Origin: a virus
DNA length: 34,975 bases
Direction: 5' to 3' (one strand)
Virus record (IMG/VR): IMGVR_UViG_3300022927_000002
Location: 1 to 34,975 of that record
The notes beneath the pieces were generated by a model, which searched no databases, had not been told where the DNA came from, and saw only the letters and a program-made list of their open reading frames with translations. A program made the translations under genes and the position numbers. Shown here piece by piece: positions 4,420 through 31,372 of this stretch (position 1 is its first letter; every line of letters begins with the position of its first letter).

Positions 4420-7400
4420 TATTGTGTGTTATCCATCATTACATTAAGTGAAAGTTGAGTATGATTGTAACTTCCTGAGAAATATATTCTCCAATAAACA
4501 GTTGATTGAGTTCCTGATAATGTAGTTATTTGTCCTGTATAAACATAAGTATATCCTCTATAAGTTCCAGCACTCCAAGAAATATTAGTATTACCACTTG
4601 CATTAACCCATGTAGTTCCATTTATTGAATATTGAACCCTACCACCACTGACATCACCAAGCACTCCTGAAAAAATAGCTACATAAGTAGCATTGTTTCT
4701 AACTTGAGTAATTGCTAAATTAAAAAATGATGCATTGCTTCCTGTATATTCTGATGTTCTTTGTACATATACTTGTCCTTCTCTTGATAAAGGCACAAAG
4801 GTTTCAGTAGTTAAATGACTTTTTATATCAGCAGATACATTATCAAAATGCTGTACGTTTAAAGTACCAACATTTATTCTTGCTGAATCTAATTGATCAG
4901 CAGTAATTTTAGTTGCTGATATGCTATTTACTTTATCATTAGTAACAGCATTATCTGCTATTTGTGTAGTGCCTACACCATCTGATTTAATAATAAGATT
5001 ACCACTACCATCAGTATCAATAGTGACATTATCTATTTGTATTCTATTAGCGTTTAAAGTTCCTGTAGAAACATTGTCTGCGTTTATATTAGTAACATTT
5101 ACAACTGAAGCATTAATAGTTCCAGTGGTAATAACATTACCTGATATAGAAGTTACATTTGAATTAACCTGAGTACCATCAATAAAAGATTCATCATTTG
5201 TTAAAGAAGATATATTATCTCCACTAACAATAATGCTTCCTGCTGTTATAACTCCTGATACATCTATTCTTGCTGCTGCTACAGTTCCAGTAGTAATAGC
5301 ACCACCTGATATAGATGTAACATTTGAATTAACTTGTCCACCATTAATAAAAGCAGAATCATTAGTTAAAGATGAAACATTATCGCCAGTAACAATAATA
5401 TTACCTGTACTAATAATATCTGAAACATTTAATCTTGCAGTGTTGACAGTACCAGTAGTGATAACACCACCACTAATTGAAGTTACGTTTGAATTAACTT
5501 GAGTACCATCTATAAAAGCAGAATCGTTTGTTAAATCTGAAATATTGTCACCTTGAACAACAATGCTGCCAGCAGTAATGATTGTTTGTGCAGAAACAGC
5601 ACCTGTTGCACCAGCTACTGACTGTACTGGTGCTGCTGATGCAGCTCCTGCTGTATCAACGTAACCAGCATTATTAGTTAAGTCTGTAACATTATCTCCA
5701 CTAACTATAATACTTCCTGTAGATATAATGTCATTAACATTTAATCTAGCAGTAGCTACAGTTCCTGACGTTATATTATCTGCATCTAAGTTAGTAACTG
5801 TAATAACTGAAGCATCTATAGTTCCTGCTGTTATTTTATTAGCTGTTATAGAATTTATCTTTGCATCAGTTACATTGCCATCTAATATCTTATTAGTAAC
5901 AATAGCATCATCTTGAATATCAGCAGTAGCAGTAGGAGCATCACCAATAGTAAATGTACCCGATGCTGGAAATCTAGCTGGTGAAGATTCAGTTCCTAAT
6001 GTATTTAAAGAAGTAATATTAGCAACATAAGAACCTGTAGGTACAAAGTTAAGATCACAATTCTCTACATCTACTATTCTATTTATTACTTGATTACCTG
6101 AATTATCTACAACATTAACCCTGTATTGATAATCAGGGAAATCAGTTGGTTCATTCCAAGATAAGAAAGGTCTACCTGTAGAACTAGAATCAGTATCAGT
6201 AAATGATAATCCTGTCGGAGCTTTAACTGCATAAGCAGAAGGTAAGTTAGCTAATTCTTCTACTGGTTCTTGAGGTGGTACTTCCCATGTATAAACATCA
6301 AAATATTCTATTAAACTAACTGCAACTAAACCATTAGGTTGTAGTTCTAATGCTTCAACTCTACAAACTTTACCTGAAAATCCTAAACCTGCATAAGTTA
6401 AATCTACTATATCTCCTACATTTAATTTATACATTTCAGGAGTTCCTAAGAACTGCATAGTTGTTTGATTTCTACTTCTAGTTAATATTGCTTTACCCAT
6501 GTTATAAGCAATATATGGATCAGTTATATAAGGAAATTCAGCTTTAATTTCTAATATTTCATCATTATCATCTGAGTAATATTCAGGAGTCGCATCATGC
6601 AAAACTGTAGCTGTATCTAATTCATATCTTTTATTAGCGTTAAAAAATTCAACAATAACTTTATTTGCTTTCTTATCTTTATTGCCATAATCAACTGATA
6701 TACCAGCATTAGCAATAATATGATTATCATTAATGCTGAATGATGATGAGCCTGTATCTTCTATTGATAATTCATACTGACCATTAATATAAAGAAAAAT
6801 ACCTCTCATGTTAGCGAGAAGCTCTTTAGCATTTTCCATTACATTTTTATTAGTATCTAAATAACCATTACAATGGAATCTTTTTATCTTCACTAAAGAT
6901 GAACCAGTAGTTTGTGAAGAATAATTTGTGCCTAAAGTATCGTTAAAATAAACTCTGTATAATGGATTTTGGTCAAAGAATTCATCTCTTTGAATATCAG
7001 TAATTTCTTTACCTGTAATAACACCATCACCATTGTTATCATAAATATCTATTAATTCACCAATTTTATTTTGCCACCAATCACTATTAGGGTCTGAACC
7101 ACCAATGGTTATAAAGCTATCACCAGCAACACCACTCCATGTTAATGATTTAGATGTACCGCCAAAAAATGGATTATCAACTTCTGTATCACAAACATCA
7201 GCAGCAGAGCTAAATGTAGAAATATTGATTTGTGATTCAGTTAATCCTTTACCGACCTCGTTGTCAGTAATGTAATTTAAAAAACATAAGGCAGGGTTAT
7301 CTGAATATGCATAAGTAGAAACATCATTAAATCTATGTGAACCACTACCACCAGCAGTAGAATCTAATCTAGGATCATAAACTTTCTTACCTCTAACTTG

Positions 7401-20701: not shown

Positions 20702-20765
20702 TTACAAAAGGTCATTTATATTATAAATACGGCTGATAGTACAGCTCTGTCGCTACAAAAAGAAT

Positions 20766-20783
20766 GGGGTGCCGCAACCTGCG
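20766..20783. other. Candidate cos / packaging site
   Basis: GGGGTGCCGCAACCT (20766-20780) stands out as GC-rich in an AT-rich region and loosely resembles the lambda cohesive end GGGCGGCGACCT. It contains a dyad, CGCA-ACC-TGCG (20773-20783). It lies about 130 bases upstream of the small terminase start, similar to lambda cosN-Nu1 (about 190). Its orientation relative to terminase is reversed from lambda, so the match may be chance. Nicking position not claimed. Confidence 0.35.
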
Positions 20784-20969: not shown

Positions 20970-20998
20970 TTGACTATAAATATATTTTTATATATATT
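20970..20998 (+). promoter_or_regulatory. Early promoter P1, rightward
   Basis: TTGACT (20970-20975), a 17-base spacer and TATATT (20993-20998) form a strong sigma-70 promoter. The start would be near 21005, giving a 30-base leader with AAGGAG before the ATG at 21035. Spacer and leader are very similar to the second rightward promoter at 23.0 kb. Confidence 0.75.
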
Positions 20999-21034
20999 AG
21001 TGTTATGTTTAATTTAAATAAGGAGAAAATAAAC

Positions 21035-21343
21035 ATGAGAGAATTTACTAATAATCAAATAGAAGCAATAAAACTTTTTAATGAGCATGTAGAGATGTCT
21101 GACTTTTGGTATGAAAAAGATTGTAATGATTTAAAGCCAACAGATATAACAGAATATATATACATGGATGAAGCGATAGAGCTATTAAATAAAAACGGGT
21201 GGACTGTTGAAAGTGCTGAAGGAACTATCGGCAGTTTAATAAATAAAGATGTTATGTATGAAGTTGATTACTGCATACATAAAGAAGCACCAGTTTTTGT
21301 GGTTCATTGGATTGATTTAGACAACATCAAGGTGGCTCAATAG
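21035..21343 (+). CDS. Unknown acidic early protein, 102 aa
   Basis: I place the start at the ATG with AAGGAG nine bases upstream (MREFTNNQIEAIKLFNEH). An ATG thirty bases earlier would coincide with the transcription start. The product is acidic, with a helical N-terminus, TEYIYMDEAIELLNKNGWTV in the middle and a beta-like C-terminus (VDYCIHKEAPVFVVHWIDLD). I recognise no family. It is the first gene of the rightward early transcript and shares its promoter with the ArdA-type gene, so a host-takeover or anti-defence role is a reasonable guess, not shown by sequence. Confidence 0.75.
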   Translation: MREFTNNQIEAIKLFNEHVEMSDFWYEKDCNDLKPTDITEYIYMDEAIELLNKNGWTVESAEGTIGSLINKDVMYEVDYCIHKEAPVFVVHWIDLDNIKVAQ

Positions 21344-21350
21344 CCACCTT
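21329..21350 (+). terminator. Hairpin at the end of the first early gene (weak terminator or attenuator)
   Basis: AAGGTGGCT and AGCCACCTT form a perfect 9-bp stem with loop CAAT, overlapping the TAG stop. The following TTTAATTAATAA is only a weak U-tract, so partial termination before the ArdA gene is more likely than complete stop. Confidence 0.6.
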
Positions 21351-21373
21351 TAATTAATAAGGAGAATATAAAC

Positions 21374-21910
21374 ATGGAACAAGTACAACAACAAGAAACA
21401 AAACACGGCGTATATTTCGCTAACTTAGAAGCATACAATCAAGGGCGTATGATTGGGGGCTGGTTATATCCTTTAGATTATGAAACATTAGAGGGTTTTT
21501 TAGAAGCAATTAAACAAGTAACAAGAAACGCCGATGAAGTGGCGGTGCATGATTATGATGATTTTGTTGATATGGGCGAATATCCATGCCATAAAGAGCT
21601 GTATAAATTAATTCATGCTGTAAATGATTCATATCTTGATAATGAAATCCTATTTAAATATATGGCAAATCAACATAATTATTCTATTGATTTAATAGAT
21701 GAAGCTGAAAATTCCCATGTAACCACTTGCGACAATTTCAGAGACTTTGCCTATGAAATGGCTGATCTAGATATTGAAACGAATGTTAACAAAGATGCAC
21801 AACAATTTGTTATAAATAATTTTGATTATGAATCTTATGAGAGAGATTTAAAACATAGTTATTATGTTATTGATTTAGATAACTATGATGTTGCTATATT
21901 TTCACATTAA
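21374..21910 (+). CDS. ardA: ArdA-family antirestriction protein, 178 aa
   Basis: The N-terminus matches ArdA: VYFANLEAYNQGRMIGGWLY (residues 13-32), then DYETLEGFLEAIKQVT, and ADEVAVHDYDDF near 53-64, the typical A-x-L-x-x-Y-N-x-G-x-x-x-G-x-W and E-x-x-x-H-D-Y signature. The rest is strongly acidic (DLDIETNVNKDAQQFVINNF), in keeping with ArdA proteins that mimic bent B-form DNA and block Type I restriction enzymes. Length is close to conjugative-plasmid ArdA (about 165-170). AAGGAG precedes the ATG. Early transcription would let it act as phage DNA enters. Family call is good; activity on a particular enzyme is unknown. Confidence 0.85.
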   Translation: MEQVQQQETKHGVYFANLEAYNQGRMIGGWLYPLDYETLEGFLEAIKQVTRNADEVAVHDYDDFVDMGEYPCHKELYKLIHAVNDSYLDNEILFKYMANQHNYSIDLIDEAENSHVTTCDNFRDFAYEMADLDIETNVNKDAQQFVINNFDYESYERDLKHSYYVIDLDNYDVAIFSH

Positions 21911-21920
21911 GGGGGTAATA

Positions 21921-22061
21921 ATGAAATATAAAATAATAATTAATAGCGGAACTCTTAAAGGCTTTTTAGCCTTTAGGGGTTCATGTCTTGCAACTATGCA
22001 AGATAAATATAAACGCCTACAGAATCAAGGGCATAAATTAAAATTAATAAGGGGTGAATAA
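21921..22061 (+). CDS. Unknown small basic protein, 46 aa
   Basis: ATG at 21921, eleven bases after the ArdA stop, with GGGGG upstream. It reads MKYKIIINSGTLKGFLAFRG and ends GHKLKLIRGE; the stop TAA shares a base with the next ATG at 22061 (TAATG), which shows translational coupling. The compact beta-strand/turn pattern could be a small DNA- or RNA-interacting domain, but I recognise no family. A hairpin (AAAGGCT-TTTT-AGCCTTT, 21957-21974) lies within the coding sequence. It is basic, whereas its neighbours are acidic. Confidence 0.7.
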   Translation: MKYKIIINSGTLKGFLAFRGSCLATMQDKYKRLQNQGHKLKLIRGE

Positions 22062-22495
22062 TGAAATTTTTAATAACTCATACATGGAATGGTGGAGGAA
22101 TGAGAGACTCTAAAATTCATATTTTAGATAGTTTTTCTAATCATATAAAAAGAGATGTTGAAAAAATGTTCTTAGAGGATGATATGCAAAATATCAAATA
22201 TGAAAATAATACTAACAGCTTTTATTATAATTTAAATAATGATTTAAATGATACGGGTAGAATTAGATTTGAACCTTTACCCGATGATGCTCTAGCTGTT
22301 GCATTATATCCAAATGTAAATGAATCAGAAATTATTACTGACAACGATATTTTAGAAGCATATATAAAAGATGTTTTAAATGATGAGTATAATGAGCATA
22401 AAAAAATATATAACTATTTAGCTGATGTTGAATATGAGCCTAACTATTTAATGCTTTGCACGTTGCCAGTAGTTAGACAAGTAGACCATTTTTAA
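22061..22495 (+). CDS. Unknown acidic early protein, 144 aa
   Basis: The last gene of the first rightward transcript, coupled to the 46-aa gene by a TAATG overlap. It begins MKFLITHTWNGGGMRDSKIH and is rich in Asp, Glu and Asn (PNVNESEIITDNDILEAYIK). No motif that I recognise. High acidity next to ArdA raises the possibility of another DNA-mimic inhibitor, which is inference only. A strong terminator follows 18 bases downstream. Confidence 0.75.
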   Translation: MKFLITHTWNGGGMRDSKIHILDSFSNHIKRDVEKMFLEDDMQNIKYENNTNSFYYNLNNDLNDTGRIRFEPLPDDALAVALYPNVNESEIITDNDILEAYIKDVLNDEYNEHKKIYNYLADVEYEPNYLMLCTLPVVRQVDHF

Positions 22496-22512
22496 TATTA
22501 ATCTAACCAATC

Positions 22513-22539
22513 AAAGGCGGTATTATTACCGCCTTTTTT
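22513..22539 (+). terminator. Rho-independent terminator of the first early operon
   Basis: AAAGGCGGTA and TACCGCCTTT form a perfect 10-bp stem with a TTAT loop, followed by an uninterrupted U-tract (TTTTTT at 22534-22539). Textbook intrinsic terminator, 18 bases after the stop codon at 22495. The A-run on its 5' side could also help stop leftward transcripts. Confidence 0.92.
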
Positions 22540-22732
22540 ATGCCTTCAATATATAAGAGAGCCTTAGAGCCTTTTTAAGACGTTTTAATATTAAAGCCTT
22601 GTATTACTATCAATATATAATTATATTGCAATAGACGGCTTTTCTGTGCCTTGTTTTTTTTCTCTGTTGCTTCTTTTTGTTTCTGTTGCTTTCTTTTTTT
22701 TCTTGCGGTGATTTTTTGATTCAAATATAAAT
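22540..22732. other. Gene-free pyrimidine-rich stretch next to the repeat array
   Basis: No coding frame of merit on either strand. From about 22648 to 22717 the plus strand is almost pure pyrimidine with recurrent CTGTTGCTT-like words. Together with the repeat array that follows, this makes a gene-free span of 568 bases (22496-23063), the largest in the window. Such strand-biased tracts next to direct repeats often mark replication origins. Confidence 0.55.
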
Positions 22733-22987
22733 TTGCCTTAAATATAAATTTGCCTTAAATATAAATTTGCCTTAAAAGTAAATTTGCATCAAAAGTAAAT
22801 TTGCCTTAAATATAAATTTGCCTTAAATATAAATTTGCATCAAAAGTAAATTTGCATCAAAAGTAAATTTGCCTTAAATATAAATTTGCCTTAAATATAA
22901 ATTTGCATCAAAAGTAAATTTGCATCAAAAGTAAATTTGCATCAAAAGTAAATTTGCCTCGATCTTAAATTTGCCTTAAATATAAAT
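22733..22987. repeat. Array of fifteen 17-bp direct repeats
   Basis: Fifteen uninterrupted 17-mers. Type A is TTGCCTTAAATATAAAT; type B is TTGCATCAAAAGTAAAT; copy 3 is an A/B hybrid and copy 14 is TTGCCTCGATCTTAAAT. The order is A A A/B B, A A B B, A A B B, B, C, A, giving a 68-bp higher-order unit. Partial copies flank it, and the downstream one runs into the -35 box of the second early promoter. There are no spacers, so it is not CRISPR. Iterons of a replication origin or a protein-binding array are the main candidates. Confidence 0.95.
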
Positions 22988-23000
22988 TTGCATTTAACTA

Positions 23001-23028
23001 TTGCTATTTATATATTTTTATATATAAT
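23001..23028 (+). promoter_or_regulatory. Early promoter P2, rightward
   Basis: TTGCTA (23001-23006), 16-base spacer, TATAAT (23023-23028). The spacer (TATATTTTTATA core) and the leader containing TTATGTT, AAGGAG and AAACATG closely resemble P1 at 20.97 kb. It begins one partial repeat unit after the 17-bp array, so array-bound proteins would affect it directly. Confidence 0.75.
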
Positions 23029-23063
23029 AGGTTTATGTTCAATAAAAGTAAGGAGTTATAAAC

Positions 23064-23339
23064 ATGAATAAAACACAATTAAAGAAAAACGATAAATTAG
23101 CATTTAATCTTGCTGTTGAAATGATGAGCAAGTACGCAAAAGAATGTGAAAAAGATAAAAAAACAAAAGAAATGAATCCTATTATAGGAACATATCAATT
23201 GATAAATCAACTGGCAATAGGTCTGATATACAAGGCTGATGGCTGGGAAGATGCCATTCTTGATGTAATTGATGATGCTATCAATGATGCAAGGGATACA
23301 GTCATGGCAACAAAAGAAAAGGAGTATCTAAATGTCTAA
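23064..23339 (+). CDS. Unknown early protein, 91 aa
   Basis: The first gene after P2, with AAGGAG before the ATG. It begins MNKTQLKKNDKLAFNLAVEM, with a basic Lys-rich part (ECEKDKKTKEMNPIIGTYQL) and an acidic helical end (AILDVIDDAINDARDTVMAT). Predicted all-helical. No family recognised. Its end overlaps the next gene by eight bases, so the three genes 23064-23819 form one coupled unit bounded on both sides by the 17-bp repeats. Confidence 0.75.
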   Translation: MNKTQLKKNDKLAFNLAVEMMSKYAKECEKDKKTKEMNPIIGTYQLINQLAIGLIYKADGWEDAILDVIDDAINDARDTVMATKEKEYLNV

Positions 23340-23601
23340 AAATAAATACGAAGCAAACGATATCTATGAATTATCAAATCAATTAAGCCTAGATGACATG
23401 GTTACATTGATTAATTGTTTTTCAAGCAATATCGGTGCATACATAGGAAGTGCTGGAAATCATGTAATTGATTCAGAATTAGATTGGGCTTGTACTAATG
23501 GGCATAGCATACAACTAAATTTGCAGTCTGTTAGTGAATACGAAGATCTTAAAGATTGGAAATTTTTAATGGATGGTTTAAAGAAAAGGAGTAAAAAATG
23601 A
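23332..23601 (+). CDS. Unknown early protein, 89 aa
   Basis: ATG preceded by AAAAGGAG, inside the end of the previous gene. It reads MSKNKYEANDIYELSNQLSL, then DDMVTLINCFSSNIGAYIGS, and ends in a lysine cluster (LKKRSKK). The acidic N-terminal part may form a helix-loop-helix. No recognised domain; function unknown. The stop overlaps the next start by four bases (ATGA). Confidence 0.72.
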   Translation: MSKNKYEANDIYELSNQLSLDDMVTLINCFSSNIGAYIGSAGNHVIDSELDWACTNGHSIQLNLQSVSEYEDLKDWKFLMDGLKKRSKK

Positions 23602-23819
23602 ATCTAACTAAAAAACAAATAATAGAAAAACTTAAAAGCATACAGTATGAAGTTGATAACATCTTTAATGAAAGGGTAGATAGATTTGACATAGAGTTAC
23701 TAGACTTTCACAAAGATCCTGAGCCTGATTATGGTTATATATCACATTTAGGGCATGAGGTTTATGAGGCTCAAAGAGTTCAAAAAGTAATTTTAGAAAT
23801 AATAGGAGAGGAGGACTAA
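23598..23819 (+). CDS. Unknown early protein, 73 aa
   Basis: Third gene of the P2 unit, with AAAAGGAG before its ATG. It begins MNLTKKQIIEKLKSIQYEVD and has an acidic centre (ELLDFHKDPEPDYGYISHLG) and a final helix VQKVILEIIGEED. Possibly a small coiled-coil regulator; no family recognised. The gene ends three bases before the repeat-derived terminator hairpin region at 23.82 kb. Confidence 0.7.
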   Translation: MNLTKKQIIEKLKSIQYEVDNIFNERVDRFDIELLDFHKDPEPDYGYISHLGHEVYEAQRVQKVILEIIGEED

Positions 23820-23821
23820 AT

Positions 23822-23862
23822 TTGCGGTAAAGGTAAATTTGCCTTAAATATAAATTTGCCTT
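23822..23862. repeat. Second cluster of the 17-bp repeat
   Basis: A variant copy (TTGCGGTAAAGGTAAAT), then an exact type A copy, then a partial copy running into the end of the leftward gene at 23862. It marks the convergent junction between the P2 unit and the leftward early genes. Confidence 0.9.
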
Positions 23863-23873
23863 TATCTTTTTTT
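23829..23873 (+). terminator. Repeat-built terminator of the P2 operon
   Basis: AAAGGTAAATTT (23829-23840) pairs with AAATTTGCCTTT (23852-23863) as a 12-bp stem with one G-U pair and an 11-base loop. ATC and seven T (23867-23873) follow. The stem is made from neighbouring 17-bp repeat units, one altered by GCC to GGT, and the U-tract lies inside the last codons of the opposing gene. Confidence 0.7.
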
Positions 23874-24524
23874 CATGTGTCTTAGAAATTGTTTGTGTAA
23901 TTCTTTGTGCAAATTATTCTTAACGACCATTTCTCCAACTTTAAAGAAATCAATAAACTTTCTATGCTTAATGAATGGGGTATAAGCAACCAACAGTTTT
24001 AATCCATCTCTACCTTTAACTCCTTGCCTTTCCCAAATACCATAAACTTTTGATCCTTGACCTTTAGGAACTCCTTGAAAACGAGAGCCTTTTCTTTGTG
24101 AATCAGTAGTTTTATCTATTCTTGATAATAAACCACCCTTTTTAGATAGTTTTACAATATTACCAAATTTGCCTTGTTTAGGTAAACCATCTCTTGTTGG
24201 AGAGGGATAACCTCTATTTCTTGCAGGTTCATCATCTCCACTGTAAATGTAATGTAAGTATTTCGCCGCCCAATCCTTGACTCTTACAGTCATAGCTAAT
24301 TTGCTACTACTTGGTTTAGCAAATTGAGATATAACAACACTTTTAATTGTTTGTGGTCTTGGCTTATCTAATTTATCGTGCAGGTGTGACCTTTCAGCAT
24401 TAACAATTTTTTCGCCAGTATAGTTCATGGCTCTAGCCATAATTTTATTGAAATCTTTTTTGTTTAAACTTCGGTCAAGTTCTTTTCTAACTTGTCTTAG
24501 ATTTGATTTTAAAACTATCCGCAT
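23862..24524 (-). CDS. Unknown basic protein, weakly like lambda minor tail protein Z, 220 aa
   Basis: A very basic protein starting MRIVLKSNLRQVRKELDRSL, with DFNKIMARAMNYTGEKIVNA and LDKPRPQTIKSVVI. This helix arrangement recalls lambda gpZ (tail completion), which has A-x-N-R/Y near its N-terminus and a region of strong basic charge followed by a final helical R-x-x-x-L-x-K end. The middle (RNRGYPSPTRDGLPKQGKFG) is Gly/Lys-rich. It lies far from the head-tail genes and is flanked on both sides by 17-bp repeat copies. Other options are a nucleic-acid-binding protein or an HK97 gp10-like protein. I give the Z assignment low weight. Confidence 0.75.
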   Translation of the reverse strand: MRIVLKSNLRQVRKELDRSLNKKDFNKIMARAMNYTGEKIVNAERSHLHDKLDKPRPQTIKSVVISQFAKPSSSKLAMTVRVKDWAAKYLHYIYSGDDEPARNRGYPSPTRDGLPKQGKFGNIVKLSKKGGLLSRIDKTTDSQRKGSRFQGVPKGQGSKVYGIWERQGVKGRDGLKLLVAYTPFIKHRKFIDFFKVGEMVVKNNLHKELHKQFLRHMKKR

Positions 24525-24531
24525 ATCAAAT

Positions 24532-24553
24532 TTGCCTTAATTATAAATTTGCC
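24532..24553. repeat. Third cluster of the 17-bp repeat
   Basis: One full copy (TTGCCTTAATTATAAAT, one mismatch to type A) plus the first five bases of another, immediately upstream of the ATG at 24524. Read on the minus strand, the AAGG in the repeat sits near that start and may serve as its ribosome site. Confidence 0.85.
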
Positions 24554-24711
24554 CAATGACTTTTTTTATCAAACTTTAAACCATTCTCATTTGCTACTTT
24601 AAGAATAGTCGATTTGCTTCTACCTAAAGACATTACCACCTCGTTTAGCGATTTGCCTTTATCGATTTGCCTTTTAAGTTGCGAAACATCAATTTGCGGT
24701 TTATTGCTCAT
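24541..24711 (-). CDS. Small helix-turn-helix protein, 56 aa
   Basis: ATG at 24711 shares a base with the stop of the DUF3310 gene (TAATG). The protein runs MSNKPQIDVSQLKRQIDKGK then SLNEVVMSLGRSKSTILKVA and NENGLKF. The segment SLNEVVMSLGRSKSTILKVA has the form of a resolvase/homeodomain-type helix-turn-helix (GKSLNEVVMSLGRSKSTI). At 56 residues it is essentially one DNA-binding unit. It may regulate phage promoters or bind the repeats that overlap its own 3' end. The regulatory role is inference. Confidence 0.8.
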   Translation of the reverse strand: MSNKPQIDVSQLKRQIDKGKSLNEVVMSLGRSKSTILKVANENGLKFDKKSHWANL

Positions 24712-24929
24712 TATAAGTTCTTGTAATGTTCTTTTAATTTATTAATATACCAAATTGCTTTCTCTAAGTCTTGAATATTGGCATCTTTATATTTATGCCT
24801 GTGTAGGTACTTAATTGCATTACCCTCAAGATACGAAGGGAAATTTGCACCTAACTGTTGCTTTATGTAGTCGATACATTCCAATTTGCCTTTATTATAA
24901 TGGGGTGGTTTGTTGATGGGATCACTCAT
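24711..24929 (-). CDS. DUF3310-family protein (putative nucleotide kinase-associated), 72 aa
   Basis: ATG at 24929 has AAGGAG with a good spacer and is preferred over an ATG 90 bases upstream, which lies inside the zinc-ribbon gene. The protein carries the full DUF3310 signature: KPPHYNKGKLECIDYIKQQL, then YLEGNAIKYLHRHKYK and DLEKAIWYINKL. This family is widespread in phages, sometimes fused to or annotated as a nucleotide kinase; its biochemical activity is not established. It overlaps the upstream gene by eight bases. Confidence 0.9.
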   Translation of the reverse strand: MSDPINKPPHYNKGKLECIDYIKQQLGANFPSYLEGNAIKYLHRHKYKDANIQDLEKAIWYINKLKEHYKNL

Positions 24930-25077
24930 TTGCTTCTCCTTTTGGTAAGTAAACTTCAATATATGCTTCACATTTAGGGCATGATAAATTCGTGACAATA
25001 TCATATTCTTCATTCTCATCAGCTATATCATGATCTCCACCCCAAATAACCTTAGTTCCACAATGCCAACAAGTCAT
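24922..25077 (-). CDS. Zinc-ribbon micro-protein, 51 aa
   Basis: ATG at 25077 with AAGGAG upstream; the ATG overlaps the previous stop (ATGA). It reads MTCWHCGTKVIWGGDHDIAD ... TNLSCPKCEAYIEVYLPKGE. Cys3/Cys6 and Cys33/Cys36 form two CxxC knuckles, a classical zinc ribbon. Proteins of the form CWHCG...IWGGDHD...LSCPxC are, as I recall, common in marine phages, with unknown function; binding nucleic acid or RNA polymerase is possible. Conserved length and a strong ribosome site argue that this very short gene is real. Confidence 0.88.
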   Translation of the reverse strand: MTCWHCGTKVIWGGDHDIADENEEYDIVTNLSCPKCEAYIEVYLPKGEANE

Positions 25078-25256
25078 TTGCTTCTCCTTACTAATTCATT
25101 CCTACATTTTTGTATGACCTTTTTCTTTGCACTTGGTGATTCAATATAATCATTAAGTTCTGCAATTGTCATACACTTCAAATAATAATGTTCAATACTT
25201 AATTTGCCTGTAGCCCTATCTCTTATCTTGGCACTAGGTTTTAGTTTTATCGGCAT
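25074..25256 (-). CDS. Unknown small basic protein, 60 aa
   Basis: The ATG at 25256 has AGGAG seven bases upstream and gives MPIKLKPSAKIRDRATGKLS; an earlier ATG at 25304 lacks a site and lies inside another gene. The pattern IKLKPSAKxRDRxTGK...HYYLKCMTIAELNDYIES is typical of a small phage protein found in marine and T4-like phages. It is basic with a helical second half. Function unknown; a DNA-associated role is possible. It begins inside the 3' end of the preceding 43-aa gene. Confidence 0.8.
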   Translation of the reverse strand: MPIKLKPSAKIRDRATGKLSIEHYYLKCMTIAELNDYIESPSAKKKVIQKCRNELVRRSK

Positions 25257-25365
25257 CTTTTTTCTCCTTTTTCTTTTTTCCAAATACTTTTTCCCAATTT
25301 GCATCTATCTTCTTAGAATCTTCAGGTCTACGTTTACTACCCTTGCCTCCGTGCCATTTAGTCAT
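25234..25365 (-). CDS. Micro-protein of MTKWHGGKGS type, 43 aa
   Basis: ATG at 25365 inside the last codons of the upstream gene (eight-base overlap). It reads MTKWHGGKGSKRRPEDSKKI, then DANWEKVFGK and a lysine-rich end. The W-H-G-G-K-G-S-x-x-R-P start is a recurrent phage micro-protein signature that I recall from cyanophages and other marine phages; its function is not known. The overlap with the next gene start (23 bases) and the similar arrangement of neighbours support it. Confidence 0.75.
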   Translation of the reverse strand: MTKWHGGKGSKRRPEDSKKIDANWEKVFGKKKKEKKDADKTKT

Positions 25366-25852
25366 AATCTACTCTTTGTATATTTACAGATTTATCCAAT
25401 TTGCTTAAAAGTTCTTTTGCTCTCATAAAATCAGTTGGGATACAACGTAATAATTCTTCAATGCTAAATATCATAATATCTTTTTCTTCTTTGTGTATTA
25501 ATTCTAATACTGGCTTCTCATCATCAGTATCACATACCAATGCAGTCTTTTTATCAAACGTAAAGCATTTTGCATTTGGTTGGATCATAATATATCCACT
25601 TTCTTCACATTTGATATTTAACTGCTCATAAGCTCTCATCATCATTTCCACCATAGCAATTTGCTTTTTAGGGGAGTCTTCTCGTAAAGATGTTTTTAGC
25701 ATTTGCTCTGCTTTAAGAAATTTGATCTCAAAGTCAACGCCTACCATTTTATAGATTCGTTTCCAATTACCCCACTTAACTTGAGTTTCAGCTTCATAAA
25801 TCCTCAACTCTTTTAATTTATCTTTTAAAGATTCTTCTAAATAATTACTCAT
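25358..25852 (-). CDS. Unknown protein, 164 aa
   Basis: It starts MSNYLEESLKDKLKELRIYE, a charged helical region running to about residue 80 (LKTSLREDSPKKQIAMVEMM), then a beta-rich part (YIMIQPNAKCFTFDKKTALV) and an acidic end. An AGGA lies upstream of the ATG at 25852. No domain recognised. It is the first gene after the primase-helicase, separated from it by a 136-base repeat-rich spacer, so it probably belongs to replication or its control. Confidence 0.78.
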   Translation of the reverse strand: MSNYLEESLKDKLKELRIYEAETQVKWGNWKRIYKMVGVDFEIKFLKAEQMLKTSLREDSPKKQIAMVEMMMRAYEQLNIKCEESGYIMIQPNAKCFTFDKKTALVCDTDDEKPVLELIHKEEKDIMIFSIEELLRCIPTDFMRAKELLSKLDKSVNIQRVDYD

Positions 25853-25880
25853 ATTTTATATCCTGTGTTATGTGTGTACA

Positions 25881-25983
25881 TCTAAGTGTGTATCTGTGTA
25901 GTCCTTACGGACTACTACACACACACACACTTATATAATGTACCGCTACACACTTACACACTTGTTTACACACTTACACACTT
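25881..25983. repeat. CA/TG-rich intergenic block with direct repeats and a hairpin
   Basis: Two copies of TACACACTTACACACTT (25947-25963 and 25967-25983, 20-bp period), a run of ACACACACACAC near 25917-25930, further AAGTGTGTA words on the left in the opposite orientation, and a perfect 7-bp stem hairpin GTAGTCC-TTAC-GGACTAC (25898-25915). It lies between the primase-helicase and the next gene. Candidates: origin iterons, operator or Z-DNA-prone element. Confidence 0.85.
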
Positions 25984-25988
25984 TAACA

Positions 25989-27962
25989 TTATAATAGCTC
26001 ATAATCTTCATAAGGTCTGAACTCAACTAGCCTGTAACCCTGCTTGGTTGTCGCATTTTTGTCTCTTGTAGCATGAACTATGATTCCAGCTTTTTCTAAC
26101 CTTGCAAAAGCATTATTTGTGTTATCTCTACCAATTTCCTTACCACTTCCGTTAAAAACAGCATGATGCCCAAAAGTAGAGTGTGTAAACCATTTTTCTT
26201 CAGGTTTTTCCTCATCTAGTGCTAATGAGTACATTAAACCTGCTATCTTTTTATCTACTATGTGATCTATTTTTGATTGTGATTCCTCATCAGATTCAAT
26301 CTCTGCATCAGTCTCAATTAATAATCCTGAAGTTACATCAAGACCTTCACCAACTAAATGCTCCTCATGGAATACAAAGTTTTTCTCTGCCATACCCATT
26401 CCGTCTTTATTCTTAGTTTGCTTCATCTTGACAAACATTTGCTCTGCACTATCAACAGTCTTATCTTTTCTCTCAACTAAGAACTCACCATCAATAGAAG
26501 CATCAAGAACAGAACTACCTCTAGCTCTTCCTTTATTCCCTCTACCTGTATGATGAACAAGCAATACTGTACAATCAAAATCATGTATCAATTGGTCTGC
26601 GGCTTTGACAAACTTATTAACCTCTTGAGCTGAATTCTCATCACCACTAAAGTTACGCTGAAACGTATCAAAGATAATTAAACCGATTTGCCCTACTTCT
26701 TGTTTAAGCAAATTAATCTCATCTTCTAACTTCTGATACTCTTCAGGCTCGTTAATCCTTGAACCTCTGTTAGATAAAAACAATGGTGCTTCTTTTAAAC
26801 TACCGCCATGTTTGCTTTGGTTATAAGCAGCCAATCTCCTACGAATTCCTGCAACTCCCTCACCTGCAAGATAGACTACTGGTGCTTTTTTTGCATTATG
26901 TCCATAGAAATCACTACCTCTTGCTACTGCACAAGCCATAGCTATCGCGATAAACGATTTGCCTGATTTCGGCTCACCAAACACTGTTATAAGTCTTTGT
27001 GTTTCAAAAACATCTGTTATAAGCCAATCAGGATTCGTTACCTGCGATAAAACAATATCGGCTCTCTGAAAGCGTAACGCACCTTTAGGTAGCTTTTCTT
27101 TTTGTCCTTTGACAAAGTTAATAAAGTCATCTGCTGATTTAAAATAACCCCTCTGATAAGCATCATAAAGATCATCTTTATCATTAAAATCTTTTGGTGG
27201 CTGTATAATCCTAATTGATTTGCATCCTTCTTTTCTAAGATGTTCAGCTAGTTCTTCTGCACAATTCTTACCTGCTTTATCATTATCAGGAAATATCCAT
27301 ACTTCTCTATCTAATACAGGCTTCCAGTCTGCTTTCTTCCAACTATTGACTCCACCATGCCAAGTACAAGAATCAAGCGTATCTCCTATTATTGCCTCAC
27401 AGCCCTTCAGAGCCTTCTCACCTTCATTTACTACGATTGGCTTGGTAGGGTACTTATCCGTATAGTAAATTGGCATGAGAGGGCTCTCAGGACGTTTTAG
27501 ATGCCATAAACCATCAGCACCTAATGTAAATGGTGCATATTTCTGTTTAATGGCATGACCTTCAGGGAATCTAAGAACAATAAAATTATTGCTATATTTA
27601 AGACTGACGATTGACTGTTTGTATAAGTCAATCATTTGATCTCTATTGAATGACCTAGCATTACTTGTGGTTTCACTTTTAGGGGGGTTAAAACCACTTA
27701 ATAAGGAGTCATTTGAATGTAATGCTAAGTCATAACCAAACTGTTTTAAAACTGTATTTATATCTTGATTTAAGTGTTTTATTAAATCAATTACACCACC
27801 ACCGACTCCTGCCTCGTGATCGTAAAATGTACCCTCTTTTTTATTAAGAACCATTGAACCCTTGTTACCCCATCTAAGCTCGTTAGATGAGGTCTTGCTG
27901 GGTTCTCCTAGTAGTTGCTTGGCAACTTCAGGAGCTATTCTTATCCAATCTATCTGTTGCAT
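25989..27962 (-). CDS. Toprim / RecA-fold primase-helicase (RepA-like ATPase), 657 aa
   Basis: The N-terminal 70 residues resemble a primase zinc domain without its cysteines (TFYDHEAGVGGGVIDLI). The Toprim domain has Glu180 in VVNEGEKALKG and Asp226-x-Asp228 in WIFPDNDKAGKN. The helicase-like ATPase has Walker A GEPKSGKS (329-336), Walker B GLIIFDTFQ (431-432) and VLLVHHTGRGNKGRARGSS near 468, as in RepA/DnaB-type hexameric helicases and KaiC-like ATPases. The C-terminal 60 residues may be a winged helix (NNAFARLEKAGIIVHATRDK). It should unwind the phage origin and prime synthesis; without zinc ligands, primer synthesis is uncertain. The start overlaps the upstream stop (TGATG). Confidence 0.88.
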   Translation of the reverse strand: MQQIDWIRIAPEVAKQLLGEPSKTSSNELRWGNKGSMVLNKKEGTFYDHEAGVGGGVIDLIKHLNQDINTVLKQFGYDLALHSNDSLLSGFNPPKSETTSNARSFNRDQMIDLYKQSIVSLKYSNNFIVLRFPEGHAIKQKYAPFTLGADGLWHLKRPESPLMPIYYTDKYPTKPIVVNEGEKALKGCEAIIGDTLDSCTWHGGVNSWKKADWKPVLDREVWIFPDNDKAGKNCAEELAEHLRKEGCKSIRIIQPPKDFNDKDDLYDAYQRGYFKSADDFINFVKGQKEKLPKGALRFQRADIVLSQVTNPDWLITDVFETQRLITVFGEPKSGKSFIAIAMACAVARGSDFYGHNAKKAPVVYLAGEGVAGIRRRLAAYNQSKHGGSLKEAPLFLSNRGSRINEPEEYQKLEDEINLLKQEVGQIGLIIFDTFQRNFSGDENSAQEVNKFVKAADQLIHDFDCTVLLVHHTGRGNKGRARGSSVLDASIDGEFLVERKDKTVDSAEQMFVKMKQTKNKDGMGMAEKNFVFHEEHLVGEGLDVTSGLLIETDAEIESDEESQSKIDHIVDKKIAGLMYSLALDEEKPEEKWFTHSTFGHHAVFNGSGKEIGRDNTNNAFARLEKAGIIVHATRDKNATTKQGYRLVEFRPYEDYELL

Positions 27963-28582
27963 CAGAATGGTATATCGTCATCAGTTAATTCATTCTGACT
28001 TACCATCTCTGCTACTTTATCAGCAAGACCTTCGTTTGGACTTTTAAATCCATCATCTTCTGAAGTATCACCATCATTATCATAGAAAGGTGGTATTTCA
28101 AAACCATCAAATCTAGGTGCAAATTTATTGAATTTAAAATCAAGTTCAGATGATCTACCAATTCCTACCTGTATTTCTTTTGAGCCTAAATACTCAACTA
28201 CAGGCAAAGAACCGCTATTTGCATCCATTTGATTCCAAAAGCCAGTTAGTATCTTATTAAAAGCACTTGATTCAGCATAAGTGAATCTACTCCAAATAAG
28301 TGCGTGTTCATGTCCAAAAGGCATAACTACACAACTAAAGGCTCTTTTCCAATCATCAGCAGGCTTTGGTGATGCTTGACCAAATTTGCTGTCCCATTGA
28401 TACTGATATTCACCAGCATAACGACCCCAGCCTGACTTAAATGTTGCAGGGTCTAACTGCAAATATTTAATATCAATTGGTGTTTTACCATTAACAAAGA
28501 ACTTCTGATCTGCTGTTTTAAAAGCAAGATAATAGTCTTTGCTGTCTCCATTGGAATTTGACATTCCGCCTAATATATCCAT
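27962..28582 (-). CDS. Probable single-stranded-DNA-binding protein with SSB-like tail, 206 aa
   Basis: The protein ends NELTDDDIPF: the acidic-IPF tip is the hallmark of SSB tails that recruit host replication and repair proteins. The body is beta-rich with many aromatic residues (GWGRYAGEYQYQWDSKFGQA; CVVMPFGHEHALIWSRFTYA), fitting an OB-like ssDNA-binding core, though it is not a standard bacterial SSB. Residues 155-195 form an acidic linker (PPFYDNDGDTSEDDGF). It has AGGAG before its ATG and is coupled by one base to the primase-helicase, as expected for a replisome pair. The role is inferred from tail and context. Confidence 0.75.
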   Translation of the reverse strand: MDILGGMSNSNGDSKDYYLAFKTADQKFFVNGKTPIDIKYLQLDPATFKSGWGRYAGEYQYQWDSKFGQASPKPADDWKRAFSCVVMPFGHEHALIWSRFTYAESSAFNKILTGFWNQMDANSGSLPVVEYLGSKEIQVGIGRSSELDFKFNKFAPRFDGFEIPPFYDNDGDTSEDDGFKSPNEGLADKVAEMVSQNELTDDDIPF

Positions 28583-28596
28583 ATACTCTCCTATGG

Positions 28597-28806
28597 TTAA
28601 TGTATTGTTTTCTCAATACTGTTTAAGTAATCAGTTTCAAGTTGGGTGTAACACCTTTCCTTAAAACTTTCATAATCCTCGTCATTTATTATTCCGAGAA
28701 ATTCACAAGCACTTTGTATTTTGTCATAGGCAAACCTACAATAATCCTCAAAGTCCTGCTCAAGCAGGTAGCTGTTTAAATCCATCTGCCTTTTGTATGA
28801 TTTCAT
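28597..28806 (-). CDS. Unknown small acidic protein, 69 aa
   Basis: It begins MKSYKRQMDLNSYLLEQDFE; an internal ATG at 28785 (MDLNSYLL) with AAGG upstream is an equally good start. The gene overlaps the resolvase-like gene by 47 (or 26) bases. The protein is predicted helical and acidic (EDYCRFAYDKIQSACEFLGI, then NDEDYESFKERCYTQLETDY). No family recognised. Confidence 0.65.
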   Translation of the reverse strand: MKSYKRQMDLNSYLLEQDFEDYCRFAYDKIQSACEFLGIINDEDYESFKERCYTQLETDYLNSIEKTIH

Positions 28807-29194
28807 CTAGCCTTTCGCATATATCTGATAATGGACACATATATGCACATTGCCAGTTGGGTTGTTCAAATTGATTAAAAAGCCATAAAGGCACAACACA
28901 CATGATACTTCTCCTATCGAATTTATATATCAATATAGGAATCAAGTCATCACCAGCACTCTCTATTGCTTGTTGCCACCATGCGTTCTTATAAACATTC
29001 TGATTGCCATTGTTCTTATATCTTTTACACTCAATAGCAAAGTTCCTGAAATAAATGTCAGCCATTCCTCTAGTCTGATATTGGTCTAAATTTCTTTTTA
29101 CTCTTTCATCTAAACCTTTTTCTTCTAATACAATATTAAGTTTATTGACTATTAATCTCTCAAATGCTGCACCTTTATTTCTTGCGTTTACCAT
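28760..29194 (-). CDS. PD-(D/E)XK nuclease, Holliday-junction-resolvase-like, 144 aa
   Basis: The start NKGAAFERLIVNKLN and the core QTRGMADIYFRNFAIECKRY give Glu12, Asp46, Glu55 and Lys57, the E...D...E-x-K set of the archaeal Hjc-like / phage resolvase group of PD-(D/E)XK nucleases. It probably cuts branched recombination or replication intermediates before packaging. The C-terminus is less typical (SIMCVVPLWLFNQFEQPNWQ). The ATG overlaps the stop of a 35-residue membrane protein by one base (TAATG). Confidence 0.78.
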   Translation of the reverse strand: MVNARNKGAAFERLIVNKLNIVLEEKGLDERVKRNLDQYQTRGMADIYFRNFAIECKRYKNNGNQNVYKNAWWQQAIESAGDDLIPILIYKFDRRSIMCVVPLWLFNQFEQPNWQCAYMCPLSDICERLDEIIQKADGFKQLPA

Positions 29195-29301
29195 TAATCT
29201 AACTCATTTAAAATATATACTGCTGCTATCACACTTATAATCGCACCAATAAAAACCAATCCAAATATTCCTGCAATAAAATATAATATCCAATCAAGCA
29301 T
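29194..29301 (-). CDS. Small single-pass membrane protein, 35 aa
   Basis: ATG at 29301. The sequence MLDWILYFIAGIFGLVFIGA then IISVIAAVYILNELD is almost wholly a transmembrane helix. It overlaps the upstream 54-aa gene by eight bases and the downstream nuclease gene by one, which supports translation. Function unknown; similar tiny membrane proteins are common between phage early genes. Confidence 0.65.
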   Translation of the reverse strand: MLDWILYFIAGIFGLVFIGAIISVIAAVYILNELD

Positions 29302-29458
29302 CGAATCTTGTCCTTACTATCTTGCCACTCATGTATTGTATTTCTCTATAATGCTCTCCAGCACCTTTTTGAAAATAGTAATACTTTATTTGCTTATCTA
29401 ACTTTTCTTGCTCTAATTCTTTTCTACGCTTCTCAACTGCTGCTTTATTTTGACCCAT
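29294..29458 (-). CDS. Unknown basic micro-protein, 54 aa
   Basis: ATG at 29458, overlapping the end of the preceding ribbon-helix-helix candidate by 14 bases. It reads MGQNKAAVEKRRKELEQEKL, a highly charged helix, then DKQIKYYYFQKGAGEHYREI and a basic end. Possibly a nucleic-acid-binding or coiled-coil peptide. No family recognised; support comes from the overlap pattern, which repeats along this stretch. Confidence 0.6.
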   Translation of the reverse strand: MGQNKAAVEKRRKELEQEKLDKQIKYYYFQKGAGEHYREIQYMSGKIVRTRFDA

Positions 29459-29609
29459 TTTTCTTACTCTCTTTATAAGAAACCATGCCTAGCTTTAAGA
29501 CCATTTGCGTTGCAGTCTCAATATTCATGTTGTTTTTGATTGCGAATATCTTGATCTCTTTATGTAGATCATCCGATATCCAAAGTGCTTTTTTTATTTT
29601 TTCGTCCAT
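29445..29609 (-). CDS. Candidate ribbon-helix-helix regulator, 54 aa
   Basis: ATG at 29609 with AAAGGAGAG upstream. The protein reads MDEKIKKALWISDDLHKEIK then IFAIKNNMNIETATQMVLKL. The pattern (short basic strand KKALWI, helix SDDLHKEIKIFAIKNNM, turn, helix IETATQMVLKL) fits an Arc/CopG-type ribbon-helix-helix DNA-binding domain, in which the strand reads the operator. At 54 residues it would act as a dimer. It may be one of the proteins that bind the promoter half-sites or repeats of this phage; no direct evidence. Confidence 0.68.
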   Translation of the reverse strand: MDEKIKKALWISDDLHKEIKIFAIKNNMNIETATQMVLKLGMVSYKESKKNGSK

Positions 29610-29629
29610 TCTGACTCTCCTTTTTAATA

Positions 29630-29740
29630 TTAATATTTATTTTGCAATAAAGCTAGAACTTTATTACCCTCTCTTCCAAAAACCCTTATACTTAGTTCAA
29701 GGGCGTAAGATAAACTCTCCATAAAACTTAATACTCTCAT
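29630..29740 (-). CDS. Possible micro-protein, 36 aa
   Basis: An open frame from ATG 29740 (MRVLSFMESLSYALELSIRV, then FGREGNKVLALLQNKY) fills the gap between the RecE-like gene and the ribbon-helix-helix candidate. A poor ribosome site (AAGGG about 11 bases upstream). It is predicted helical and amphipathic. Included because genes here are otherwise packed without gaps; it could equally be non-coding leader. Confidence 0.4.
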   Translation of the reverse strand: MRVLSFMESLSYALELSIRVFGREGNKVLALLQNKY

Positions 29741-29758
29741 ATATCTATTCGCCCTTTC

Positions 29759-30589
29759 TTATAAAACCAAATCCACAACATTAGGACTATTGTAAATACT
29801 AAGAGGTTTACCCTTTTGATATTCTTTATAATCCTCTAGGTATTGCTCCATCATGTTCCAACCATAATCCATTTGCTCTTTAGTAATTCTAAAAACCTTA
29901 GATGCATAAGGTTCTGTTTTTTCTTGTGCTATAAAGACAAAGTCTGTTACATCATATCCAGCCATCTGTAATCCTCTTCTATAAAATGCTGCTTGTAAGT
30001 CATAGCCATACTTTTTGACTGACTTATTAAAAGCATAAGGTTCGCAAGATATAGTAGTTTTATAATCTACTATTACTATTTCATTATCTGAATTAGGTTT
30101 ATCTAGTGGCGGACACATTAAATCAGGTCTACATTTGCATAGCACATCATCTTCGTACCAGTAGATACTTGCTTCAGCCAATTTGCCTTTTGCATTTAAG
30201 TAAGCATTACCCTCATATATCATATTTGCCTGCATATCAAAGATCATGTGTGCATCTTCTTCTTTTAAGACTATATAACCTTGCTCCTCATATTCAGCTT
30301 TCTCTTCTTTAAATGCTTTAGTGTAAGGAGAACCGCTTATAACTCTTACTTCTTTATCAAAAGCCTCTTTGCCCTCTACTAATAAAGAATGAGCTGCTGT
30401 ACCAAACTTTAGTGCAGGAGTAGATTCAGATTTATGATTAACTGCGTGTAATTGCGATTGACCAAATCTTCTAACATAACTACTACTGATACCTACACCA
30501 GCATGATAATCTTCATTGGGTATGTCTTTATAAATAAGAGCCTGACCTTTTTGTTCTGACTCAAAGTTCTTTAGTGATTCTATTCTCAT
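29759..30589 (-). CDS. RecE-like (exonuclease VIII type) PD-(D/E)XK exonuclease, 276 aa
   Basis: The opening IYKDIPNEDYHAGVGISSSY, FGTAAHSLLVE (His67), a Glu at 139 in LAEASIYWYED, CRPDL (Asp156), IVDYKTT (Asp175-x-Lys177) and YGYDLQAAFYRRGL are the ordered motifs of RecE C-terminal / DUF3799 nucleases. These degrade one strand of duplex ends 5' to 3' to start annealing recombination. A RecT- or Erf-type annealing partner would be expected nearby, but I see none; the SSB-like protein may stand in. The start codon overlaps the previous stop (ATGA). Confidence 0.88.
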   Translation of the reverse strand: MRIESLKNFESEQKGQALIYKDIPNEDYHAGVGISSSYVRRFGQSQLHAVNHKSESTPALKFGTAAHSLLVEGKEAFDKEVRVISGSPYTKAFKEEKAEYEEQGYIVLKEEDAHMIFDMQANMIYEGNAYLNAKGKLAEASIYWYEDDVLCKCRPDLMCPPLDKPNSDNEIVIVDYKTTISCEPYAFNKSVKKYGYDLQAAFYRRGLQMAGYDVTDFVFIAQEKTEPYASKVFRITKEQMDYGWNMMEQYLEDYKEYQKGKPLSIYNSPNVVDLVL

Positions 30590-30768
30590 GTGTTGACTCC
30601 CATCAAATAAGCTATCTCTGTTAGAGAATCTCTGACTATATACTCCTTATCATCTACTTGAACTTTATTCTCTCCAGTAAATACATCTCTGTAGTAACCT
30701 CTTATTTGCCTTTTGGCTAAGATCAAAGGTTTTGTTTTACCAACTTCGTTTAATGTTATCTCTCTCAT
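30586..30768 (-). CDS. Unknown small protein, 60 aa
   Basis: It begins MREITLNEVGKTKPLILAKR and continues QIRGYYRDVFTGENKVQVDD. A compact beta-type protein, lysine- and arginine-rich at the N-terminus, with no family recognised. Its ATG overlaps the stop of the 32-aa gene (ATGA), and its stop overlaps the RecE-like start, so it is translated as part of that unit. Confidence 0.7.
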   Translation of the reverse strand: MREITLNEVGKTKPLILAKRQIRGYYRDVFTGENKVQVDDKEYIVRDSLTEIAYLMGVNT

Positions 30769-30863
30769 TTTCTGTCATTCTTATCTTTAATAATTAAAGC
30801 TGCTCCATAACATAGGTAACAAGCTGCTGCTAATATTATTAGTGTTTGTGGACTTTCTATCAT
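30765..30863 (-). CDS. Small single-pass membrane protein, 32 aa
   Basis: ATG at 30863 with a strong GGAGG and a six-base spacer. It reads MIESPQTLIILAAACYLCYG then AALIIKDKNDRK: a transmembrane helix with a basic cytoplasmic end. The excellent ribosome site and the ATGA overlap into the next gene make translation likely. Function unknown. Confidence 0.68.
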   Translation of the reverse strand: MIESPQTLIILAAACYLCYGAALIIKDKNDRK

Positions 30864-30893
30864 AATTAACTCCTCCATATAATTAATATAAAT

Positions 30894-30922
30894 ATATTAA
30901 ATTATATTTATATAATATGCAA
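30894..30922 (-). promoter_or_regulatory. Candidate leftward early promoter before the recombination genes
   Basis: On the minus strand TTGCAT (30922-30917), a 17-base spacer and TAATAT (30899-30894) lie upstream of the 32-aa gene and the RecE unit. The block is extremely AT-rich, so -10 matches are easy to find by chance. It sits in the only sizeable gap between the lysis-side genes and the recombination genes. Confidence 0.4.
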
Positions 30923-30925
30923 GTG

Positions 30926-31372
30926 TTAAATTATTGAGTTTAAAACAGGAACAGAATTAAGAGCATCAAGGGTTTCCTTAAGTGAATCTAATTCCATATT
31001 ATCGGTAATGGATTTTTTATCAAAGGTGAAATAATTTTGTGATGAGGTATTTGCCTTAAACATAATTCTCTTCTCATCATCATAAAAGAATACAAAGGCT
31101 AAAATATCGCAACGATAGTTTTTATAGGTTTCAGACATGGATCGTGAGTTTTCAGCAGCAAAGACAAACTTCTTTTCTTTAGTAGCTCGTCTGCTTTTTA
31201 CCTGAACAGTATATTTGCCTCCTGACACCTCCATCAGCAAATCGGCAGGATGTTTTTCTTGCGTTGGGTAACAAAAGTCAGCGTACTCAAGCAGAAACGT
31301 TTGTACTAATGATTCTCCTAATGCACCAAGTCGAGAATTATTTTGATGCTGGTCTGATGTTTTTCTTGGCAC
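30926..31372 (-). CDS. PD-(D/E)XK endonuclease-like protein, 148 aa
   Basis: GALGESLVQTFLLEY (Glu20), HPADLLMEVS (Asp44) and YTVQVKSRRA (Gln57-x-Lys59) are the GE...D...QxK triad of the PDDEXK_5-like endonuclease group, related to Holliday junction resolvases and intron-type nucleases. The start is GTG at 31372, overlapping the lysozyme end by 35 bases. It may degrade host DNA, resolve junctions or guard against competitors. The third PD-(D/E)XK fold protein in this phage. Confidence 0.75.
   Translation of the reverse strand: MPRKTSDQHQNNSRLGALGESLVQTFLLEYADFCYPTQEKHPADLLMEVSGGKYTVQVKSRRATKEKKFVFAAENSRSMSETYKNYRCDILAFVFFYDDEKRIMFKANTSSQNYFTFDKKSITDNMELDSLKETLDALNSVPVLNSII

Follow-up and report, generated by a model that had tools for sequence, protein, structure and literature searches.

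A polar 17-bp repeat array and a strand-specific coding word in a marine phage genome: candidate parts of a stoperator-like system

What is the function of a long array of short direct repeats in the largest gene-free span of a phage genome? The window analysed here is a viral record of 34,975 bp. It probably represents the circularly assembled and nearly complete genome of a tailed phage, because one long minus-strand tail gene extends past both of its ends. An initial annotation had described a fifteen-copy array of 17-bp units at 22733-22987 and had proposed either replication origin iterons or an operator array controlling the adjacent promoter P2. Long tandem repeats also occur within the large tail/fibre genes of the window (2403-2923 and 5118-5579, with periods of 78-87 bp and 165 bp).

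The fifteen units are real, and their order is A, A, A/B hybrid, B, A, A, B, B, A, A, B, B, B, C, A. A sixteenth copy of the core AAATTTGC, overlooked in the initial annotation, lies at 22984 and abuts the promoter. For this reason, the array is better stated as 22728-22997 (+ strand), with 16 cores in a single orientation, arranged head-to-tail at an exact 17-bp spacing, and with 15 full 17-bp units. TRF reports tandem repeats at 22721-22993 both with a period of 17 (15.9 copies, 87% matches, score 318) and with a period of 68 (4.0 copies, 91%, score 427). Fifteen exact unit matches occur genome-wide, 14 of them inside the main array and one at 23834; with up to three mismatches allowed, there are 37 matches in the window vs 17.9 (sd 3.6) in shuffles. 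Among relatives, the invariant part of the unit is approximately TTTGC(C/A)T(T/C)A, and the remainder varies, while the 17-bp spacing is nearly always retained. The AABB super-period had been read as a sign of growth by block duplication, and as a local duplication history this reading holds. The pattern is found only in the window phage and a near-identical sister, and relatives carry 5-19 units in other orders; it is thus not a conserved feature and records local duplication only.

The placement of the array also stood up to inspection. The largest gene-free span is a 568-bp gap at 22496-23063. In it, a terminator-like stem-loop (22516-22539, + strand; GGCGGTA-TTAT-TACCGCC followed by a T-run), which was read from the sequence and is not in the terminator-scan list, closes + operon 1. 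A pyrimidine tract (22646-22703, + strand) lies between this operon and the main array, and promoter P2 (23001-23028, + strand; TTGCTA-16-TATAAT, with a weak -35 box) follows. In most relatives, the final array unit is found at a fixed distance just 5' of the P2 -35 box (AAATTTGCATTTANNTATTG...). The other promoter, P1 (20970-20998, + strand; TTGACT-17-TATATT), drives operon 1 and has no array unit upstream. Early and replication genes are transcribed leftward toward the cos region, and in array-bearing phages, two + operons oppose them head-on. Between the stop of the tail gene and 21350, no intrinsic terminator for leftward transcription was found. The island at 20970-23819, with its head-on + operons, an ArdA antirestriction gene within operon 1 (21374-21910, + strand) and many small, highly variable ORFs, lies at one end of the genome and is a probable counter-defence island. 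The physical genome end (cos region, 20747-20781) was placed at 20781 because many independent contigs of the array-bearing type (L027, L032, L038 and others) start exactly there. Array-less phages own a different conserved end (GGTTATTCGCGACC...).

Two satellites, which share the unit and the orientation of the main array, were absent from the initial annotation, as were dispersed single-strand sites. Satellite 1 (23817-23865, + strand) consists of three array-type units at the convergent junction between + operon 2 and a minus-strand gene for a tail-completion type protein (23862-24524). Satellite 2 (24527-24556, + strand) has two units in the window and 2-11 in relatives. It lies between this tail gene and the minus-strand gene for a 56-aa helix-turn-helix (HTH) protein (24541-24711), and it overlaps the HTH stop codon and the ribosome-binding site of the tail gene.

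Relatives were gathered by pattern and protein scans of IMG/VR, which yielded many contigs without an array and about 55 with one. The same unit at the same place, which the initial annotation had suggested looking for in related phages, was indeed recovered: the three-part layout of array and two satellites is kept in the approximately 55 contigs. Their gene order is terS (-), cos, P1, variable + operon 1, terminator, main array of 5-19 units and P2, followed by variable + operon 2, satellite 1, tail gene (-), satellite 2, HTH (-) and DUF3310 (-). A few contigs of this type are without operon 2 or without the main array. Collinear close relatives, with terminases 90-94% identical, have neither the array nor the + cargo block, and only two neighbouring genes clearly differ in version between them and the array-bearing phages, namely the 56-aa HTH gene (33-48% identity) and the tail gene (30-38%). 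Searches for the array returned only two weak, AT-rich Listeria phage matches in annotated phage records and one chance-like three-unit match, in a cyanobacterial MAG, in bacterial genomes. The nearest isolated phages are CRP-822-type roseophages, with a similar gene order and terminases about 50% identical. No array was found in CRP-821, and its ORF at the HTH position beside the tail gene is an unrelated 60-aa sequence. Two assemblies have unusual structures. The 65,678-bp G021 (L232-L235) holds two distinct array-type genomes head to tail, with primases 75% and 77% identical to that of the window, and is a concatemer or an assembly chimera. G004 (L120, L121) has different tail-gene alleles beside HTH version B at its two contig ends, which suggests allele swapping at the tail-gene/HTH spot or a chimera.

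The repeat core is not confined to the array. ATTTGC(C/T)TT is enriched inside coding genes, on the + strand only, over a domain of about 9 kb (22728-31372). Outside the array and satellites, ATTTGCC occurs on this strand at 24167, 24651, 24665, 24884, 25202, 26686, 26957, 30181, 30224, 30704, 31049 and 31213. Array-bearing phages show the enrichment in their early and replication genes; the counterparts of these genes in array-less phages lack it, and so do the structural genes of both types. Expected counts were obtained by shuffling synonymous codons within genes. In the early genes of the window, GCAAAT was counted 30 times vs 11.6 expected and GGCAAAT 12 times vs 3.2, and none of 200 shuffles reached either value. 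Pooled over the redundancy-reduced early genes of array-bearing phages, GGCAAAT on the coding strand was observed 179 times vs 59.9 expected (z 20.9), whereas the early genes of array-less phages gave 4 vs 4.5. The corresponding counts in late genes were 8 vs 5.5 (array-bearing) and 18 vs 15 (array-less). GCAAAT came first by far in an unbiased ranking of hexamers across gene families. One 7-mer, TGACTCC, scores equally high with 19 counts, apparently from one conserved gene position. The reverse complement of the core word showed no enrichment in coding genes.

The + strand cargo genes allow strand and transcript to be told apart. On their coding strand, ATTTGC was counted 31 times vs 18.6 expected and GCAAAT 15 times vs 15.5; the polarity therefore follows the DNA strand and not the transcript. 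A motif acting at the RNA level is ruled out, as the word appears in the opposite form in transcripts of the + strand genes; a check for such a motif also gave no Rfam family match. When the cargo was split at the main array, operon 1 on the left had 5 words vs 5.4 expected and operon 2 on the right had 23 vs 10.5 (z 5.6). The domain is thus bounded on its left by the main array, and on its right it ends near 31.4 kb. Four complete or long genomes (G017, G018, G020, G021) repeat the pattern, and five array-less genomes do not. The core word ATTTGCC is thus under selection within genes over the stretch between the array and about 31.4 kb. The density of coding-region sites is highest in the HTH gene, at the promoter-distal end.

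Which protein could read this word? The initial annotation had pointed to two small DNA-binding proteins, of which one, the HTH protein encoded at 24541-24711, co-varies with the array, whereas the other, omega-like ORF does not. The HTH protein has a resolvase/Hin-like tri-helical core that AlphaFold2 predicts with confidence (mean pLDDT 82). With this model, Foldseek placed it near the DNA-binding domains of the Hin, gamma-delta and Tn3 resolvases (2gm4, 5cy1, 1gdt), with no significant match, and a search of solved structures gave two matches only, one spanning 23 residues and one weak. An array lies within 2.5 kb of HTH version A in 57 of 60 contigs and of version B in none of 75 (Fisher p 6e-35, with contigs treated as independent, which phylogenetically they are not). 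Some array-bearing contigs had been recruited via array or tail-gene scans, while the HTH scans were independent of array presence. The three exceptions without a nearby array comprise two cut contigs and one 38% outlier. On trees of three early genes, the A/B state switches 5-6 times, and in independent pairs that differ in this state, the site count nearly always tracks the version, in too few pairs for significance. Three phages (L172, L022, L153) carry version A with few or no scattered sites, and by the trees, they look like recent recombinants. A hexamer scan for a word dedicated to version B yielded nothing comparable. The HTH and tail genes are physically linked, so the co-variation could be hitch-hiking. 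A clade of three (L024/L236/L154) keeps arrays and sites with no HTH gene nearby. The HTH protein is nevertheless the likeliest putative binder of the array word. The omega-like ribbon-helix-helix ORF (29445-29609; 54 aa) was set aside as a binder, being 71-78% identical in most array-less phages; its similarity to omega repressors is weak, with a Pfam E of 0.0014, under the curated cut-off. The primase was likewise rejected as a partner, as it does not co-vary with the array.

From these features, we infer, tentatively and with a little less than even confidence, that a polar, phage-encoded operator or stoperator-like system controls early genes and has the array as its anchor and left wall. 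The asymmetric word TTTGCCTTA would be recognised by a small protein of the phage, for which the 56-aa HTH protein is the most likely candidate. Copies of this protein would line up head-to-tail at 17-bp intervals along the array and the satellites. Others would sit on the single sites, which all face one way and are scattered through the early region as far as about 31.4 kb. Two jobs can be envisaged for the system. The sites immediately before the weak -35 box of P2 may set the activity of this promoter, and leftward RNA polymerase from the early/replication operon may be slowed or stopped. Such a roadblock would spare the opposed cargo operons antisense transcription and would prevent passage beyond cos. 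The sites all face leftward traffic and culminate in a densely packed wall ahead of operon 1, which fits a directional roadblock, and the fixed spacing between array and P2 fits an added promoter role. The earlier proposal of an operator array controlling P2 is thereby borne out in outline through the fixed position of the last unit in relatives, and the gene for its putative regulator co-varies with the array. The clade with arrays and no nearby HTH gene speaks against this explanation. Moreover, the sites are densest at the promoter-distal end, whereas efficient silencing of the early operon would call for a different distribution. The phages of this group are described as almost free of integrases and as probably lytic (PMC12629253), which leaves no silencing in a lysogen to be accounted for.

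The other proposal of the initial annotation, that the array consists of origin iterons for a phage initiator, fared poorly and is now regarded as highly improbable. Direct repeats of about 17 bp in tandem, adjoining AT-rich DNA in a gene-free span, do resemble the iteron origins of phages and plasmids. However, the array is missing from collinear relatives that have the same replication genes, no initiator is linked to it, and dispersed single-strand sites in coding DNA are no property of iterons. GC skew, which had been proposed as a check, merely follows gene orientation and is uninformative for origin placement. Another locus fits better. In every phage examined, with or without an array, a short iterated word and a hairpin lie between the primase-helicase gene and ORF 25358-25852; in the window, these are AGTGTGTA-type iterons with the hairpin TAGTAGTCC-GTAA-GGACTAC at 25853-25988 (- strand). 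Such loci were noted in the window and in L116, L118, L024, L022, L145 and others. The word varies by lineage (AGTGTGTA, GGAAGT, TTTGGTTTGG, GGGTGT, GTATGTAT and GGTAG) and, as read by eye, tracks the primase tree and not array status; the array does not track this tree. The locus at 25853-25988 is the better candidate for the replication origin and is likely the real one. With their swapped words, the loci beside the primase make up a natural and clean series of candidate origins in which the evolution of initiator specificity can be studied.

Three further explanations were weighed against the operator-like system. The binder might be another phage or host protein, with the array as a titration sink or as an upstream activating sequence for P2 only. 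The fixed spacing to the weak -35 box would suit such a role, and a second candidate binder exists in a 46-aa conserved protein (21921-22061, + strand) with a predicted beta-beta-alpha-beta fold (AlphaFold2), which is encoded in operon 1 of most array-bearing phages and is retained in the clade without the HTH gene. This protein occurs as two sequence types. Its fold is not HTH-like, and it was rejected as a universal partner because it is missing from the array phages L148 and L151; in addition, a sink or a P2-only role leaves the single-strand sites over 9 kb of coding DNA unexplained. We regard this explanation as unlikely. The strict strand polarity in both coding and non-coding DNA is also reminiscent of Chi-like sites (word AAGGCAAAT), which would act with a host RecBCD/AddAB-type nuclease to protect or recombine DNA entering from the cargo-side cos end. 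Some 2 kb separate the array from the physical end. The array lies on the side away from terS, and by analogy with lambda, this would be the end ejected first. Yet operon 1, closest to that end, has no enrichment, so the polar word is not enriched from the entry end inward. Three pelagiphages do not show word enrichment, annotated phage records do not carry the array, and the array co-varies with a phage HTH version. We consider the Chi explanation quite improbable. Finally, the repeats might aid recombination at the borders of swapped cargo modules or might be a mobile tandem repeat with no regulatory role. The cargo between arrays is highly variable while arrays persist, and the copy number ranges from 5 to 19, but synonymous-site selection in conserved replication genes, strand polarity and the fixed placement at P2 would all be left unexplained, and the likelihood of this account is very low.

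Among known systems, the closest resemblance of the putative operator system is to the stoperators of the cluster A mycobacteriophages L5, Bxb1 and TipsytheTRex (PMC9283540, PMC6550527). In both cases, many short asymmetric sites are dispersed in one orientation through a phage genome, some at promoters and most not, and the binder, putative here, is a phage-encoded protein with an HTH. Cluster A stoperators are about 13 bp, lie mostly in short intergenic gaps and form no long tandem array, and their binder is a 183-aa two-domain repressor of temperate phages (PMC9283540, PMC6550527). Unlike this repressor, which combines an HTH with a Stoperator domain, the candidate here has 56 aa and a single predicted tri-helical domain. 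The orientation of L5 sites follows the direction of transcription (PMC6550527), whereas the sites here are intragenic and lie on one DNA strand even in oppositely running genes (+ operon 2 and the minus-strand genes). The phage here is probably lytic, and its site domain ends at an array of 16 units. Reversal of L5 sites abolishes repression (PMC9283540), which is the closest precedent for an orientation-dependent action. The Hin and resolvase HTH domains share the predicted tri-helical fold of the candidate binder, but the latter is a stand-alone protein with no recombinase domain. The C1 protein of phage P1 is a larger repressor, unrelated to the 56-aa HTH candidate. Its operators are 22 dispersed asymmetric 17-bp sites (ATTGCTCTAATAAATTT; PMC8546580), and their AT-rich word is loosely similar to the one found here. 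Unlike the present case, P1 is credited with neither a long tandem array nor a one-strand domain in the excerpted part of that source. In the CRP-822-type group, integrase is almost absent, and SAR11 or SAR86 hosts are predicted for low-GC members (PMC12629253).

A bolder version of the operator-like reading, which we regard as possible but doubtful, is that of a direction-reading DNA domain. The small HTH protein or another factor would read the one-strand word over 9 kb of coding DNA, with the array wall as its bound, and would act on any leftward machine whatever the direction of the genes. The cassette of protein, satellites and array would move between phages, and the genes of the recipient would then gain the word by synonymous change.

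In these marine phages, a strand-specific DNA word under selection is layered on protein-coding genes, and sister phages without the word provide a natural control, which makes both the binder and the direction of its action directly testable. If the roadblock reading is true, a stoperator-like system would exist in lytic phages, uncoupled from lysogeny, and a horizontally moved regulator would be able to rewrite the synonymous sites of its new genome.
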